Assembly: GCF_004136015.1 (NCBI RefSeq)
Contig: NZ_CP024866.1
Span: 3,992,327-4,056,326, forward strand
Length of the DNA: 64,000 nt
Origin: Pseudomonas sp. ACM7
Lineage (GTDB): Bacteria; Pseudomonadota; Gammaproteobacteria; Pseudomonadales; Pseudomonadaceae
Direction: 5' to 3'
Shown in pieces: positions 1 to 35,385 of the stretch. The translations under genes and the position numbers were made by a program. Position 1 is the stretch's first letter. Every line of letters begins with the position of its first letter. The notes under the pieces were generated by a model, which made no database searches, had not been told where the DNA came from, and worked only from the letters and a program-made list of their open reading frames with translations.

Positions 1-298
1 GCTGCGTCGTCTGGCGACAATGGAAGCGGCCCTCAACGAGGGCACGTAACTTGATGCGCCTGGGGCTTAGCGAAGCTCGCGCCTGCAAATCAGCCTTCAA
101 TGGCCGAGGCCCATGGTGGAGCTCAGGCGCATCTCATATGAATCAGGCGCTGCCGAAGAAACTATGGGGTCAGCTTGGGTTAGTTTCGGTACTGGATACG
201 ATAAACCGGCTTAGCCGCATAGCTTGAACCGCCGTATACGGATCCGTACGTACGGTGGTGTGAGAGGACGGCGGCTGTAAAGCCGCCTCCTACTCGAT
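1..298 (+). mobile_element. 3' end of a bacterial group II intron (domains V and VI)
   Basis: Positions 226-259 form a 34-nt domain V hairpin: GAACCGCCGTA pairs with the TACGTACGGTGGT arm around a short loop. A second GC-rich hairpin follows (GGCGGCTGTAAAGCCGCC), with an unpaired A in the 3' CTCCTACTC segment. This is the expected domain VI with its branch-point adenosine. The intron ends near 296-298. Most of the element, including the 5' end and the reverse transcriptase domains, lies left of the window. The 3' exon begins within a few bases of a REP palindrome. Confidence 0.75.
2..49 (+). CDS. C-terminal end of a group II intron-encoded protein (partial)
   Basis: An open frame entering from the left edge ends in TAA at 47-49 and encodes the last 15 residues, ending ALNEGT. 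It lies directly upstream of a recognisable group II intron domain V, the normal place for the end of the reverse transcriptase/maturase gene. No catalytic motif falls inside the window, so the call rests on position only. Confidence 0.5.
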   Translation: MRRLATMEAALNEGT

Positions 299-2899: not shown

Positions 2900-3406
2900 T
2901 CAACTGCAAGTGCCCACGATCGTGAACGGCCGTTGTGCCTGCATCAGATCAGGCATGTCCCGCCACTTGATCCACGCTTGATGCTGCCAATGCAACAGCG
3001 GCACCGAGATGCCTGCCCACTGCAATGAACTCAGGCTTGGAATGTTATCCACAGATGTCGCTTTCGACTCACGCAGCGAAGGTATGACTTCGTTGCTCAG
3101 CCATTGGCGCAGGTTTCGGTTTTCCGGGACAAAATGGTGAATCAATAGGGCGTACATCCCTGATTCGCTGACCATCAGCGATTCGACCGTTTTGCCGTTC
3201 TTGAGCAGCCAGACGTATCGACGCTGGTCCGGATCGAGTTTCAGGGTGAGGCGTTGGTCCATCGGGCGGCCCATCAAGCGACCGAGATCCTGGACGCAGA
3301 ACCAGGCTTGGTTGTCCTGCATGAAGGCATGGAGGAAGCGGTTGTGGCGGGTGAAGATGGTTGGGGTGAAGTAAGGTAGAAGCGAGTTTTGAGCGTGTGC
3401 TGACAT
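2900..3406 (-). CDS. BRO-N domain protein (phage antirepressor-like)
   Basis: A 168-residue protein matching the BRO family N-terminal DNA-binding domain. It has a WFCVQDLGRLMG segment (about residues 35-46), a basic beta segment, SESGMYALLIHHF, and the terminal RQWLSNEVIPSLRES that ends this domain in phage antirepressors. After residue 115 there is only a short unrecognised tail. The start chosen is the ATG at 3404-3406, 8-9 bases after a GGAAGT Shine-Dalgarno. The frame continues upstream to a TTG at 3574, but that extension is read out of the structured leader. The ribosome site is predicted to be sequestered (see the 3414-3512 entry). BRO-N proteins in P1-like phages inactivate repressors. 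A role here in host or prophage regulation is inferred. Confidence 0.8.
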   Translation of the reverse strand: MSAHAQNSLLPYFTPTIFTRHNRFLHAFMQDNQAWFCVQDLGRLMGRPMDQRLTLKLDPDQRRYVWLLKNGKTVESLMVSESGMYALLIHHFVPENRNLRQWLSNEVIPSLRESKATSVDNIPSLSSLQWAGISVPLLHWQHQAWIKWRDMPDLMQAQRPFTIVGTCS

Positions 3407-3561
3407 GAAGTGACTTCCGTTTTGAGTAGGAAAGTCGCCACCAACCCTTCGACAGGTTGGGTGGCGGACCGAGTGGCGTTCGAAGTCGGGACACTTCCAA
3501 TCAAAACGGAAGCCGGAAGGCCCGCGCCACACGGCCCGCCATAAATCAGAACTGAAGACAT
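3274..3561 (-). CDS. Possible Icd/Ash-like leader ORF overlapping the BRO-N start
   Basis: A 95-codon frame starts at ATG 3559-3561, seven bases after a GAGG Shine-Dalgarno (3570-3573). It runs through the leader, crosses the BRO-N start in another frame and stops at 3274. The first 50 residues (MSSVLIYGG..., then GLPASVLIGSVPTSN) recall the short Icd/Ash-type proteins encoded just ahead of antirepressors in P1/P4-like elements. There, translation of the leader ORF is coupled to that of the downstream gene. Codon choice in the overlap is dictated by BRO-N, so only the first 50 codons can be informative. Whether the peptide itself matters is unknown. Confidence 0.4.
   Translation of the reverse strand: MSSVLIYGGPCGAGLPASVLIGSVPTSNATRSATQPVEGLVATFLLKTEVTSCQHTLKTRFYLTSPQPSSPATTASSMPSCRTTKPGSASRISVA
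3414..3512 (-). promoter_or_regulatory. Shine-Dalgarno sequestering inverted repeat in the BRO-N leader
   Basis: A perfect 12-base inverted repeat has arms at 3414-3425 and 3501-3512. In the minus-strand RNA the upstream arm CUUCCGUUUUGA pairs with UCAAAACGGAAG, which contains the GGAAG Shine-Dalgarno of the BRO-N gene. A second hairpin (CCACC-CAACC with GGTTGGTGG, about 3443-3470) sits between the arms. The start site would be closed unless the leader ORF is being translated or the upstream arm is paired elsewhere. Confidence 0.6.
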
Positions 3562-3596
3562 AAAACTGCCTCAATCCTATGGGGGGCGCGTAAGCA

Positions 3597-3701
3597 CCGT
3601 TTTGAAATTTCCCGGCTTCGACCCCGGGTCGCTGATTTGACAGCGACGAGGTAAAGCCTATCGTTCAGGCGCTCGCGGCGCCAAGTCTACCTTGGCGCCG
3701 C
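3597..3701 (-). ncRNA. C4-like antisense RNA candidate upstream of the BRO-N gene
   Basis: The minus-strand leader folds into three hairpins: an 11-bp perfect stem (3675-3701), a 7-bp stem (3628-3647) and a 5-bp stem (3611-3628). Two short blocks are complementary to a target inside the downstream leader ORF. Block 3610-3621 pairs 11 of 12 with 3480-3491, and block 3597-3604 pairs 8 of 8 with 3502-3509. Two antisense blocks ahead of a leader ORF coupled to an antirepressor is the layout of the C4 RNA of phages P1/P7. The boundaries, processing and promoter are not visible, and the family match is my inference from layout, not a covariance-model hit. Confidence 0.55.
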
Positions 3702-3845
3702 ATGCTGTAGGAATCGGTGTCTATGCCGGAAGGTTCGATCTGTAGGAATTGCCTGTTTTTGCATGAGGTGCAGTCAAGCAGCATCACAGCCGTGGTTTTT
3801 CCTATAGTTTTTCCTGCATTCAGGAACGAACTGCAGGTTTGCTAC

Positions 3846-5099
3846 ATGTTGATCGAATTTTCAGTTTCCAATTATCGCTCCTTCCGTGACAAACAAACCC
3901 TGTCCATGGCTGCGACGCCGCGCTTGAGCAAAAAGCGCAACGTGTTCACACCTATCGTAAATGGAGAAAAACTGCCTGATTTATTGAAGGTGGCGGCGAT
4001 TTACGGACCGAACGCATCCGGTAAGTCTTCGCTTATCCGGGCGATGGGGATCATGGGGAGTTTGCTCGCTTCGATACCTTCATCAAATGATGAGCCGCTA
4101 CCGGTCTCGCCATTTCGTTTTGACCCGCAACTTCAAAACGAACCCAGTTCTTTTGAGTACAACTTCATTCAACGCGGGATCCGATATCGGTTTGTTCTGC
4201 GCATGACTGCGCAGCGGATTATCGAGGAACAATTGGTTTCCTATCCCAAAGGTAAGGAAACGCTGTTGTATTCACGTCGTTTTGTTGATGAGGGGGAGCA
4301 TTATGTTTTTGGCTCAAGCCTTGAGGGCGGTAAAGAGATGCACAACGCTTGGCGGCGTCTGACGAGTCCCAAGATGTTGTTTATTTCGCAGGCGGTTGCG
4401 AACAGTAGCGAAGAGTTGACTCAGTTGCGGGCGCCGTTTAGCTGGTTTCAAACCGGTCTACTCGTTATTGAGCAGAACAACATGATGGGGTTGTCAGCAG
4501 CGTCCATCAGATTTCTTCGGATGGCATCGGATTACACACATGATTTACGAGACTTTCTAAAAGAAGTGGATATCCCGGTGTCAGCGATCCGGCTCAACAC
4601 CGAAGACGCAGAGTCTGTTCAACGCACCAAAAAACTCACACTGAAAGAGTTCTTCGCAGCAGCCCAAAAAGACAAAGTGACCCTGACGCATACGAGTCTT
4701 TTAGGCCAGGCGGAGTTTGATTTTTCCGAGGAGTCAGGCGGTACGAAAAACCTGGTTGGATTCTGGCTGCCCTGGTTCATGATCAATCACGCCGATGGTA
4801 GCGGGATACTGTCTGTCGATGAGTTGGACAGCAGTCTTCATCCCTCAATAGTCGCGGACTTGATTGAGAAACACCTGGACAGTGGGTTGGAGAATCAACT
4901 GATCTTTACCACTCACGACACTCATCTAATGAACGCCAAAGCGCTTCGCCGCGATCAGTTCTGGATCACCGAAAGAGACGCTAACGGTGCAACCTGCCTT
5001 TTTTCTGTTTACGACTTTGAAGGACGGGAAGGGGAGGATGTCGAGAAACGCTACTTTGAAGGCCGTTATCGCGGGTTACCACTGATAAGGCGGGGTTGA
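3846..5099 (+). CDS. RloA/AbiLi-type AAA ATPase (anti-phage pair with RloB)
   Basis: A 417-residue SMC/ABC-like ATPase. Visible motifs: an N-terminal FSVSNYRSFRD, Walker A GPNASGKS (residues 54-61), a signature-like SGGTKNL, Walker B ILSVDELDSSLHP and an H-loop FTTHD near the C-terminus. This is the AAA_15/AAA_21 architecture of RloA and AbiLi. The start at ATG 3846 (MLIEFSVSNYRSF) is preferred because family members begin there; the frame is open to 3717. The stop codon lies 3 bases before the ATG of the rloB remnant. The gene is visibly more AT-rich than its neighbours, suggesting horizontal transfer. RloA/RloB homologues belong to the AbiL abortive-infection system. Confidence 0.8.
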   Translation: MLIEFSVSNYRSFRDKQTLSMAATPRLSKKRNVFTPIVNGEKLPDLLKVAAIYGPNASGKSSLIRAMGIMGSLLASIPSSNDEPLPVSPFRFDPQLQNEPSSFEYNFIQRGIRYRFVLRMTAQRIIEEQLVSYPKGKETLLYSRRFVDEGEHYVFGSSLEGGKEMHNAWRRLTSPKMLFISQAVANSSEELTQLRAPFSWFQTGLLVIEQNNMMGLSAASIRFLRMASDYTHDLRDFLKEVDIPVSAIRLNTEDAESVQRTKKLTLKEFFAAAQKDKVTLTHTSLLGQAEFDFSEESGGTKNLVGFWLPWFMINHADGSGILSVDELDSSLHPSIVADLIEKHLDSGLENQLIFTTHDTHLMNAKALRRDQFWITERDANGATCLFSVYDFEGREGEDVEKRYFEGRYRGLPLIRRG

Positions 5100-5101
5100 T
5101 C

Positions 5102-5720
5102 ATGGCGCGTTCGATACGACTATTTGATCGAAAGGCACCGCGGTTCAAGCCTCAACCCAAAGTGTTGATCCTCTGTGAAGACAGCAAGTCAGGAAAACGA
5201 GGAGGCTGCATTTCATTTTCGCGCCAAAGCTCAAGTGGAAATTTCCCACTGTGGCGTCACACACCCAAGCGGCATTGTAGAAACAGCAATAGCCCGCCAG
5301 AAATGCTTCGACAAGGTGTTTTGTGCATTGGATCGCGATACACATCTGTGTTTTGAACGAGCAATAAATCTGGCGAGGCCTCATCCGAAAATCAAAGTCA
5401 TCGCTTCCTACCCCTGTTTTGAGTTTTGGCTGCTTCTGCACTTCGGTTTCAATCGAAAGCCATTTCGAGCGGTTGGAAAGCACTCTCCAGGCGACTTGCT
5501 GGCCAAGAGCCTCAGAGAGAAACCCAACATGGATAAGTACGAAAAAGGCGAAGACACCAACTATTTCGCACAACTTTTAGGTGAGCCCTTCCAAAGGGCG
5601 AGAGATTTAGCACCAAAGATTATCGAGGACGCTGCTATCAGCGGCGAACCTAACCCCAGCACCGAAATCCATCTGCTGATGGACGAATTCGAAATTCTCT
5701 CCAAACCCCTACCGATCTAA
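5102..5720 (+). pseudogene. RloB/AbiLii partner, frameshifted
   Basis: The protein is split over two frames. From ATG 5102 the first frame gives KPQPKVLILCEDSKSGK, the RloB N-terminal motif, and then degenerates. From about 5199 the frame offset by +1 continues with EEAAFHFRAKAQVEISHCG, FDKVFCALDRDTH and SYPCFEFWLLLHF, all characteristic RloB segments, down to the TAA at 5718-5720. The junction is GGA AAA C|GAG at 5192-5201. Compared with my memory of RloB proteins, two to three residues are missing there, so a small out-of-frame deletion (for example 8 bases) is more likely than programmed recoding. A sequencing error is possible. As written, no complete RloB can be made. Confidence 0.8.
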
Positions 5721-34631: not shown

Positions 34632-35385
34632 TGGGGGGGATTGGGTGTATATCCGTTTTTGCGGTAGCGGCGGCTATCGGTTTCGCTTTTACAGCGAGTC
34701 ACTTGGAAATACGGAATGCCGCCCAACCCCAAGTAACCAAGGGCTCTTGCCCCTTTCGTTCGGTGCCTCGCCTAGGCTCGCCATGCCCTCGCTCCGGTCC
34801 TGCTCCGTGGGCCCGCCGCCATCGGCCATCCATGGCCGGGGGCGGCTAACCCGGCATCCATGCCGGGTTGCCCACTGCGCAGAACCTCCACTCGGCCTCT
34901 CGAGGGGGCGGTGCATCAAGATCAAAAGCTGCAGGCGAGCTAACGCTCGACCTGTTGAGTGGTGAGGAGCGTGCGTACACCCCCTCCCCCCGGTAGGAGC
35001 TGTCGAGTGAAACGAGGCTGCGATCTTTTGATCTTGCTGTGGCTGTGGCTGTGGCTGTGGCTGTGGCTGTGGCTGTGGCTGTGGCTGTGGCTTTTGATTT
35101 TGATCTACTGCCCCTTTCCCAGAGGCCGAACGCAGGCGTTGCGCAGGGGGCACCGCGGCAAGGATGCCGCGGTAGCCGCCCCCGGCCATGGATGGCCGAT
35201 GGCGGCGGGCCCCCGGAGCAATGCCGGAGTGAGGGCATGCCGAGCCCAGGCGAGGCACCGAATGGAGGGGCAAAGCCTTTTGCTTACTTTTCGGCGTTTG
35301 GAAAAGTGAGTCGCTGTAAAAGCGAAACCGTAATCAGCCATCACCGCAGAAACGGATATGTACCCACCAACCCCAATCCCCAATC
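34632..35385. repeat. 750-bp imperfect inverted repeat, two arms of about 290-330 bp
   Basis: The left arm (34632-34935) and the inverted right arm (about 35097-35385) align over their whole length. Shared blocks include TATCCGTTT..GCGGT, GGTTTCGCTTTTACAGCGA, TTCGGTGCCTCGCC, GGCCCGCCGCCATCGGCCAT and CTGCGCA..CCT. The spacer holds a half REP and a hexanucleotide microsatellite. The unit resembles long intergenic repeats dispersed in P. fluorescens genomes, but no name can be given without a search. Confidence 0.8.
35036..35092. repeat. (GCTGTG)9.5 hexanucleotide microsatellite
   Basis: Nine perfect copies of GCTGTG plus a half copy, with no interruption, inserted exactly after GATCTTTTGATCTT of a half REP. 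Perfect identity suggests a length-variable locus. Confidence 0.95.

Follow-up and report, generated by a model that had tools for sequence, protein, structure and literature searches.

The BRO-N gene and its leader

The window analysed here is a stretch of 64,000 nucleotides from the chromosome of Pseudomonas sp. ACM7. On its minus strand lies a gene for a BRO-N domain protein, preceded by a leader with several mutually complementary blocks. The features are as follows, from 5' to 3':

3560-3660 (-), upstream IsrK-like or a1b1 hairpin segment; matched by Rfam isrK and c4-a1b1; predicted fold -39.0 kcal/mol, z -3.7 against shuffles
3610-3621 (-), a1 block, putative upstream target or decoy, TCGAAGCCGGGA; 11/12 complementary to a', within the c4-a1b1 match 3608-3660
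3597-3605 (-), b1 block, TCAAAACGG; 9/9 complementary to b', with which it covaries in 45 orthologues
3457-3546 (-), C4-like putative antisense RNA segment; RF01695 at 42.2 bits, E 2.4e-6; predicted fold -46.2 kcal/mol, z -4.8 against shuffles; 71.5 bits with R1, a C4 model built from 17 sequences, this segment among them
3501-3512 (-), b' block of the C4-like segment, CTTCCGTTTTGA; 12/12 with b2 and the Shine-Dalgarno (SD), 9/9 with b1; mostly loop in the predicted fold
3480-3491 (-), a' block of the C4-like segment, TCCCGACTTCGA; pairs with a1 at 11/12 and with the a2 core at 6/6
3447-3452 (-), a2 core TCGAAG, directly 3' of C4; a' pairing in all cells of 45 leaders, in one cell by G-U
3412-3436 (-), predicted hairpin whose 3' arm contains the SD and whose loop contains b2; pairing of the SD tetramer predicted for 49/60 leaders (a count that excludes seven named leaders, leaders without a found start and identical segments); weak in the window, z -0.6
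3414-3425 (-), b2 block, the BRO-N SD stretch, TCAAAACGGAAG; 12/12 with b', with which it covaries in 45 leaders
2900-3406 (-), gene for a BRO-N domain protein of 168 aa, under putative control of the leader; Pfam PF02498 (Bro-N) at 36.1 bits, curated cutoff 25.6; its antirepressor role is a prediction

The leader therefore reads a1, b1, a hairpin segment with b' and then a', a2 and b2, all on one strand within 210 bases, and the BRO-N ATG stands 8 bases 3' of b2. An earlier sequence-only reading had described the 11/12 complementarity of TCGAAGCCGGGA (3621-3610) with TCCCGACTTCGA (3491-3480) and the exact 12/12 match of the SD stretch TCAAAACGGAAG with its partner CTTCCGTTTTGA, and both were confirmed. 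The second block pair, given there as 8/8, proved longer: b1 pairs at 9/9 with CCGTTTTGA, inside 3512-3501. When 3401-3654 was dinucleotide-shuffled 2,000 times, a perfectly complementary 12-nt pair appeared in 7 shuffles, and a 9-nt word with two complementary copies in none. The short ORF described in the same reading is present, with its ATG at 3561, but only 14/45 orthologous leaders keep this start, and the ORF was rejected as a conserved part of the module.

Relation to the C4 family

A permissive Rfam search placed three families on the minus strand of the leader, each below its gathering score: RF01695 (C4) at 3457-3546 (42.2 bits, gathering 45), RF03163 (c4-a1b1) at 3608-3660 (27.7 bits, gathering 46.7) and RF01394 (isrK) at 3560-3647 (31.9 bits, gathering 50). 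In the whole-window search at gathering thresholds these three families were all missing. Three near orthologues likewise stay under the RF01695 gathering score (36.6-39.8 bits), and 14 matches at paralogous or other loci reach 65.9-88.1 bits. The matches over threshold in the window were a group II intron domain at 227-298 (+) and two TwoAYGGAY RNAs at 34809-34873 (-) and 35148-35212 (+).

The immI region of phages P1 and P7 has the layout a1 b1 - c4 - a2 b2 - icd - ant, and its C4 is an RNA of about 77 nt released by RNase P. Used as a positive control, phage P1 gave C4, c4-a1b1 and isrK at 68.8, 51.0 and 35.1 bits in the same order as in the window, the isrK score being again under the gathering 50; its record is annotated in the order a1, b1, c4, a2, b2, then icd and ant1. 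R1 finds the P1 c4 at 44 bits. Because the same families occur in the same order in P1, the downstream segment is best assigned as a C4-like antisense RNA and the upstream hairpins as its a1/b1 target or decoy. This reverses the sequence-only reading, which had taken the upstream hairpins as the antisense and the ORF region as the target; the order of the Rfam matches in the window and in P1 led us to reject the upstream segment as the antisense. The kind of switch had been recognised correctly, with the BRO-N ribosome site as its target, and the C4 scan proposed there did return a match, although on the downstream segment and short of the gathering score.

Other properties of the segment are those of a C4 RNA. 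It is predicted to fold into a compact multi-stem structure with b' mostly in a loop, and its b' and a' are complementary to b2, located at the ribosome-binding site, and to the a2 core. The ATGG at its start is kept in the consensus (ATG in 45/45 leaders) and occupies the position of the GG cleavage motif of C4 RNAs given in the available text of PMC5320573. No icd lies between the C4 target and BRO-N; a2/b2 directly precedes BRO-N, and b2 is the BRO-N gene's own. As the segment stays below the gathering score and is not followed by icd, we call it a C4-like variant and not a filed member of the family.

Word classes and alleles at the opgD site

A protein profile recovered 453 BRO-N relatives in GTDB genomes, and the best 80 of the 453, all titled Pseudomonas, were kept. 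Sixty of these 80 loci share one conserved chromosomal site with the window: opgD borders them on one flank, and genes for an APC-type transporter and/or an aldehyde dehydrogenase on the opposite flank. C4 is found in 42 of them and missing from 18, and the BRO-N frame is open over at least 148 codons in 58; the exceptions are L117 and L061, the window's nearest relative by opgD. No phage gene was seen at this site, which bears out the placement of the module outside any visible prophage.

The leaders of the window, the 42 syntenic loci with C4 and two other loci were aligned. These 45 sequences fall into two word classes, 27 of CAAAACGG type and 18 of CAACATGG type (the CGT and CAT classes). 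At the diagnostic C/T position all 45 rows show pairing of both b1:b' and b':b2, with no mixed leaders. The covariation score was 0.158 for b':b2 (shuffled 0.065, sd 0.007) and 0.111 for b1:b' (shuffled 0.058, sd 0.006), with 0/500 shuffles as high in either case, and both scores were also above all slid versions. The sequences are related, and only paired cells, double-changed cells and the covariation score exceeded the shuffles; the counts of pairs and pair types did not (477/500, 209/500 and twice 500/500). The a2 core is almost invariant and therefore says little on covariation. Covariation of the blocks in homologous leaders, which the sequence-only reading had set as a test of its model, was thus found: b1, b' and b2 change together.

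The joint change extends to paralogues. In an alignment-free permutation test, own partners gave stronger binding than permuted partners, both for 48 distinct C4 sequences and for 27 divergent ones (0/20000 in each of four comparisons), with start codons picked crudely and some b2 windows cut (e.g. L064, L083). Since the own partner ranked first or joint first in no more than 4 to 11 rows per comparison (5/48 for b':b2), the signal lies in the average. Within single genomes the own partner was best in 4/4, 4/4 and 2/2 rows in three genomes and in 3/6 in G018. The predicted b':b2 energies are -16.3 and -14.3 kcal/mol within the two word classes and -8.7 and -7.8 across them, so that the two classes are predicted not to fit each other's targets. 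In the 45 leaders with C4, b1 and b2 agree fully in 24 and differ by one base in 17 and by two in 4; in the C4-less leaders they differ in 18/18.

The distribution of the classes was compared with quick single-gene trees made without bootstrap. On the opgD tree (61 rows) the well-supported branches force at least 14 changes for CGT, 13 for CAT and 9 for the C4-less class, and on the BRO-N tree (59 rows) at least 10, 9 and 7, respectively. The CGT and CAT labels are no more clustered on the opgD tree than shuffled labels (206/500 and 301/500 as low). The C4-less label is clustered (24/500 shuffles as low on opgD, 0/500 on BRO-N), and all three labels jointly are slightly more clustered than shuffled (7/200 and 14/200 as low). 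Given the number of changes that the opgD tree forces, the CGT, CAT and C4-less classes look like alleles traded among dozens of species, a pattern that quick single-gene trees cannot separate from repeated gene conversion. The first BRO-N residues look class-specific by eye in part of the alignment, suggesting that the exchanged tract may comprise the leader and about a dozen codons.

The interval between the leader and the transporter gene is a variable cargo site. AAA_21 is present at 25/60 sites and RloB at 23/60, the pair being AbiL-like according to PADLOC; with the window included, it accompanies 9/26 CGT, 9/17 CAT and 8/18 C4-less leaders. The sequence-only reading had noted this phage-defence pair beside the module. 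The pair is not a conserved partner, and with its presence limited to 25/60 sites a functional tie was rejected. Of the 35 sites without the pair, 15 have no ORF of 100 codons. Eight other cargo proteins from six of the remaining sites were scanned: Pfam identified PIN, MazE-like and PemK-like proteins, PADLOC, applied to five of the eight, gave PsyrT/ShosT-like and, weakly, PD-T4-9-like matches, and three of the eight had no defence or toxin-antitoxin match. The window interval 3717-5720 and its counterpart in L051-L108, L112 and L117 hold AAA_21/RloB, toxin-antitoxin-like genes, other defence-like genes, or nothing. In the window the RloB-like gene seemingly lies in two overlapping frames, 5096-5356 and 5175-5720 (+), of 86 and 181 codons; in many relatives it is one frame of 208-212 codons.

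C4 copies, mode of control and a second leader RNA

The BRO-N family is multi-copy, with a match in 26/57 related genomes and four in the window's genome. R1 matches 55 of the best 80 loci, including one truncated by a contig end. The 25 loci without a match were classed, five by testing and the rest by eye, as 18 window-type C4-less loci, two of another BRO-N branch (L110, L115), four with sRNA-Xcc1 and one with a third leader type (L128). This third type, also seen before BRO-N in L010, L011, L016, L027 and L028, has by eye CCTAAGAAAC..CCCAACGTAG, GTTGGGATTTCTT..CTCTACGT and then ACGTAGAG at the ribosome site; five of the six were scanned, with no Rfam match at the leaders. A BRO-N paralogue with its own C4 leader and a TAG inside the frame was found at L040 (own genome 3610699-3611142). 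Genome G018 carries tandem C4/BRO-N modules about 1 kb apart (L007 and L031) and an extra C4 match upstream of a C4/BRO-N module (L034:3622-3705, -).

RF01695 was found in 184/199 genomes of the genus, many of them with at least 20 scored candidates. The window's chromosome has 30 R1 matches spread over 6.6 Mb, and the module is thus no single oddity. Downstream of 29 of these 30 (the weakest was omitted) we found 14 genes of a first small-protein cluster (DUF6124 in the single member tested), 8 of a second (no Pfam match in the three members tested), three BRO-N genes, one DUF3077 gene and, in three cases, no ORF by the rule used. Own pairing beats permuted pairing among the 29 (0/20000); the own target is the strongest in raw terms in only 4/29 rows downstream and in 22/29 upstream. 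The window's C4 loop has the strongest pairing with its own leaders of all 29 (-33.6, next -26.3; upstream -32.1, next -25.4).

We propose, with a probability of roughly 0.7, that the C4-like segment acts as an antisense RNA repressing BRO-N translation, in a leader ordered as in P1, and that the upstream block likely serves as a decoy relieving this repression. One transcript would span all parts of the leader. The C4 part would be released from it, probably by RNase P at the GG start, as in P1, and its loops b' and a' would bind b2 and a2, excluding ribosomes from BRO-N. Excess a1b1 RNA, in cis or as a short RNA, would then occupy a' and b' and turn BRO-N on. The direction assigned to each step follows that in P1 C4 and Gifsy-1 IsrK. 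The alternative duplexes of C4 with the downstream a2/b2 and with a1b1 are predicted to be equal in strength (-42.3 and -42.0). The C4-less alleles, which persist with BRO-N mostly intact, count against C4 repression. The sequence-only reading had suggested folding the leader with and without the antisense segment. Either way, the prediction has the SD paired within its own hairpin (GGAAG unpaired 0.00-0.01 in every construct), so the fold alone is no proof that C4 closes an open site; in the whole leader b':b2 is predicted to form in cis.

This last result bears on a different arrangement, in which the blocks act only in cis as a two-state leader: b' would pair with the SD unless b1/a1 of the same transcript takes b', and no free antisense would exist. 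When the whole leader is folded, b' is paired with b2 in the minimum-energy structure (b2 0.02 unpaired), and the closeness of the blocks on a single strand would suit such a leader. Covariation cannot tell cis from trans pairing, as both rely on the same blocks; we nevertheless regard a purely cis leader as unlikely, given that the C4 segment is predicted to be stable alone and is similar to RNAs that occur in processed, free form in P1 and apparently also in A. baumannii, according to the available part of PMC5320573. A little less probable still is that the upstream RNA works in the IsrK mode, as an active trans activator of BRO-N, with the C4-like part only an inhibitory mRNA segment and never a separate repressor. 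Gifsy-1 IsrK activates anrP in trans by the same kind of competition, as described in the accessible text of PMC4825925; the leader does match isrK, and pairing of the C4 loops is stronger and more specific with the upstream leader, as seen in the 22/29 rows above. The isrK score is far under its gathering value, however, and Gifsy-1 activation goes through orf45, whereas the ORF start is kept here in few leaders. Within 3350-3900 neither a sigma-70-like minus-strand promoter nor a terminator separating a1b1 from C4 was predicted, which leaves a free upstream RNA unsupported in the window; some relatives have by eye a stem and a T-run between a1b1 and C4.

It is very improbable that the module is a decaying phage remnant without present function. 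Its parts are of phage type and score under the Rfam thresholds, and the BRO-N frame is broken in 2/60 orthologues, including the window's nearest relative, but the other 58 frames are open and the blocks keep changing jointly. Moreover, phage records contain remote BRO-N relatives only: none of the 235 records with a match reaches 60% identity or covers 80% of the query. Matches occur in 19 plasmid records, all under 60% identity, and viral contigs three loci at 27-49% identity, each with an R1 match. On these records a recent phage origin was rejected.

The preferred reading, a C4-like antisense repressor, can be compared with known systems. The module shares with P1/P7 immI the order a1 b1 - C4 - a2 b2 on a ribosome site, on one strand, with the same three Rfam families, and a predicted class specificity set by a few bases, as is reported for P1/P7 in the part of PMC5320573 available. 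It differs in scoring under the gathering thresholds, in the missing icd with b2 on the BRO-N gene itself, and in its fixed chromosomal site with allelic word classes and a C4-less class. With Gifsy-1 IsrK (PMC4825925, available text) it has in common an upstream RNA sequence competing for a segment before an antirepressor-type gene; the low isrK score, the poorly kept start of the coupled ORF and, in the window, the lack of a predicted terminator after the upstream segment set it apart. The Group 1 C4-like sRNAs of Acinetobacter baumannii are chromosomal and multi-copy, with RNA-seq expression, apparent processing and variable loops that suggest different targets; the accessible portion of that report (PMC5320573) describes no cis a1b1/a2b2 targets, whereas in the window, known from sequence alone, the targets lie on either side of C4 and change jointly with it. 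In Weinberg et al. (PMC2864571, in the text available), c4 and c4-a1b1 are entered for Proteobacteria and phages. In a literature search that mostly left out subscription papers, the passages available gave no link of C4 to chromosomal BRO-N genes, no description of allelic C4 word classes and no link of sRNA-Xcc1 to a C4-type layout.

The sRNA-Xcc1 leaders (RF02221) have a three-block layout of their own, with one word upstream, one in the loop and a third at the ribosome site downstream. Within the genus RF02221 occurs in 42/199 genomes, with 46 matches, of which 30 were fetched; a BRO-N frame lies downstream in 30/30. Beyond the genus it was found in 18/228 genomes, 11 of them over the cut-off. 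There 0/29 loci lead into the same BRO-N type, and among 24 downstream ORFs scanned 5 were SymE and 19 had no Pfam match. The loops pair better with their own downstream leaders than with permuted ones by duplex energy (0/20000 in 12 and in 27 distinct loops), and all four duplex-energy comparisons were significant (0, 27, 0 and 0 of 20000). By run length, the pairing of loop with upstream word in Pseudomonas was weak (690/20000) and that of loop with b2 outside Pseudomonas was not significant (3141/20000). These leaders thus resemble the C4-like ones in preceding BRO-N genes of the same family in Pseudomonas, in being flanked by complementary blocks and in having b2 on the ribosome site. They differ in sequence family: of 18 leaders scanned, 11 were over the sRNA-Xcc1 threshold and none had a C4 match. 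Published work treats sRNA-Xcc1 as an sRNA that is controlled by HrpG/HrpX and whose trans targets are predicted (PMC2996969 and PMC12189769, in the text available).

Taken together, a broader picture may be drawn, to which we give even odds. At a fixed chromosomal site in dozens of Pseudomonas species, three interchangeable C4/BRO-N leader alleles, two with mutually unfitting antisense words and one antisense-less, would form a trans-species recognition polymorphism of the P1/P7 heteroimmunity type, now bacterial. This site would be one of about 29 C4 switches with their own words on a single chromosome, and sRNA-Xcc1 would be a second RNA family with the same three-block logic before BRO-N and SymE-like genes. 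A phage immunity device would thereby have become a chromosomal regulatory class with many natural specificity variants, and as many of these occur in one genome, RNA-RNA recognition and insulation could be tested there. As controls, nature already supplies C4-less and class-swapped alleles at one site. A testable role is also offered for sRNA-Xcc1, published with predicted targets only in the texts available, and cis targets may be worth seeking beside the C4-like sRNAs of other genera.

Three-block sRNA-Xcc1 leaders were observed in L030/L158 (own genome 1074719-1074804) and in L134-L192. An sRNA-Xcc1-like RNA lies directly 5' of SymE-like genes (Pfam SymE_toxin), encoded in the sense direction, in L164, L166, L182, L183 and L189.
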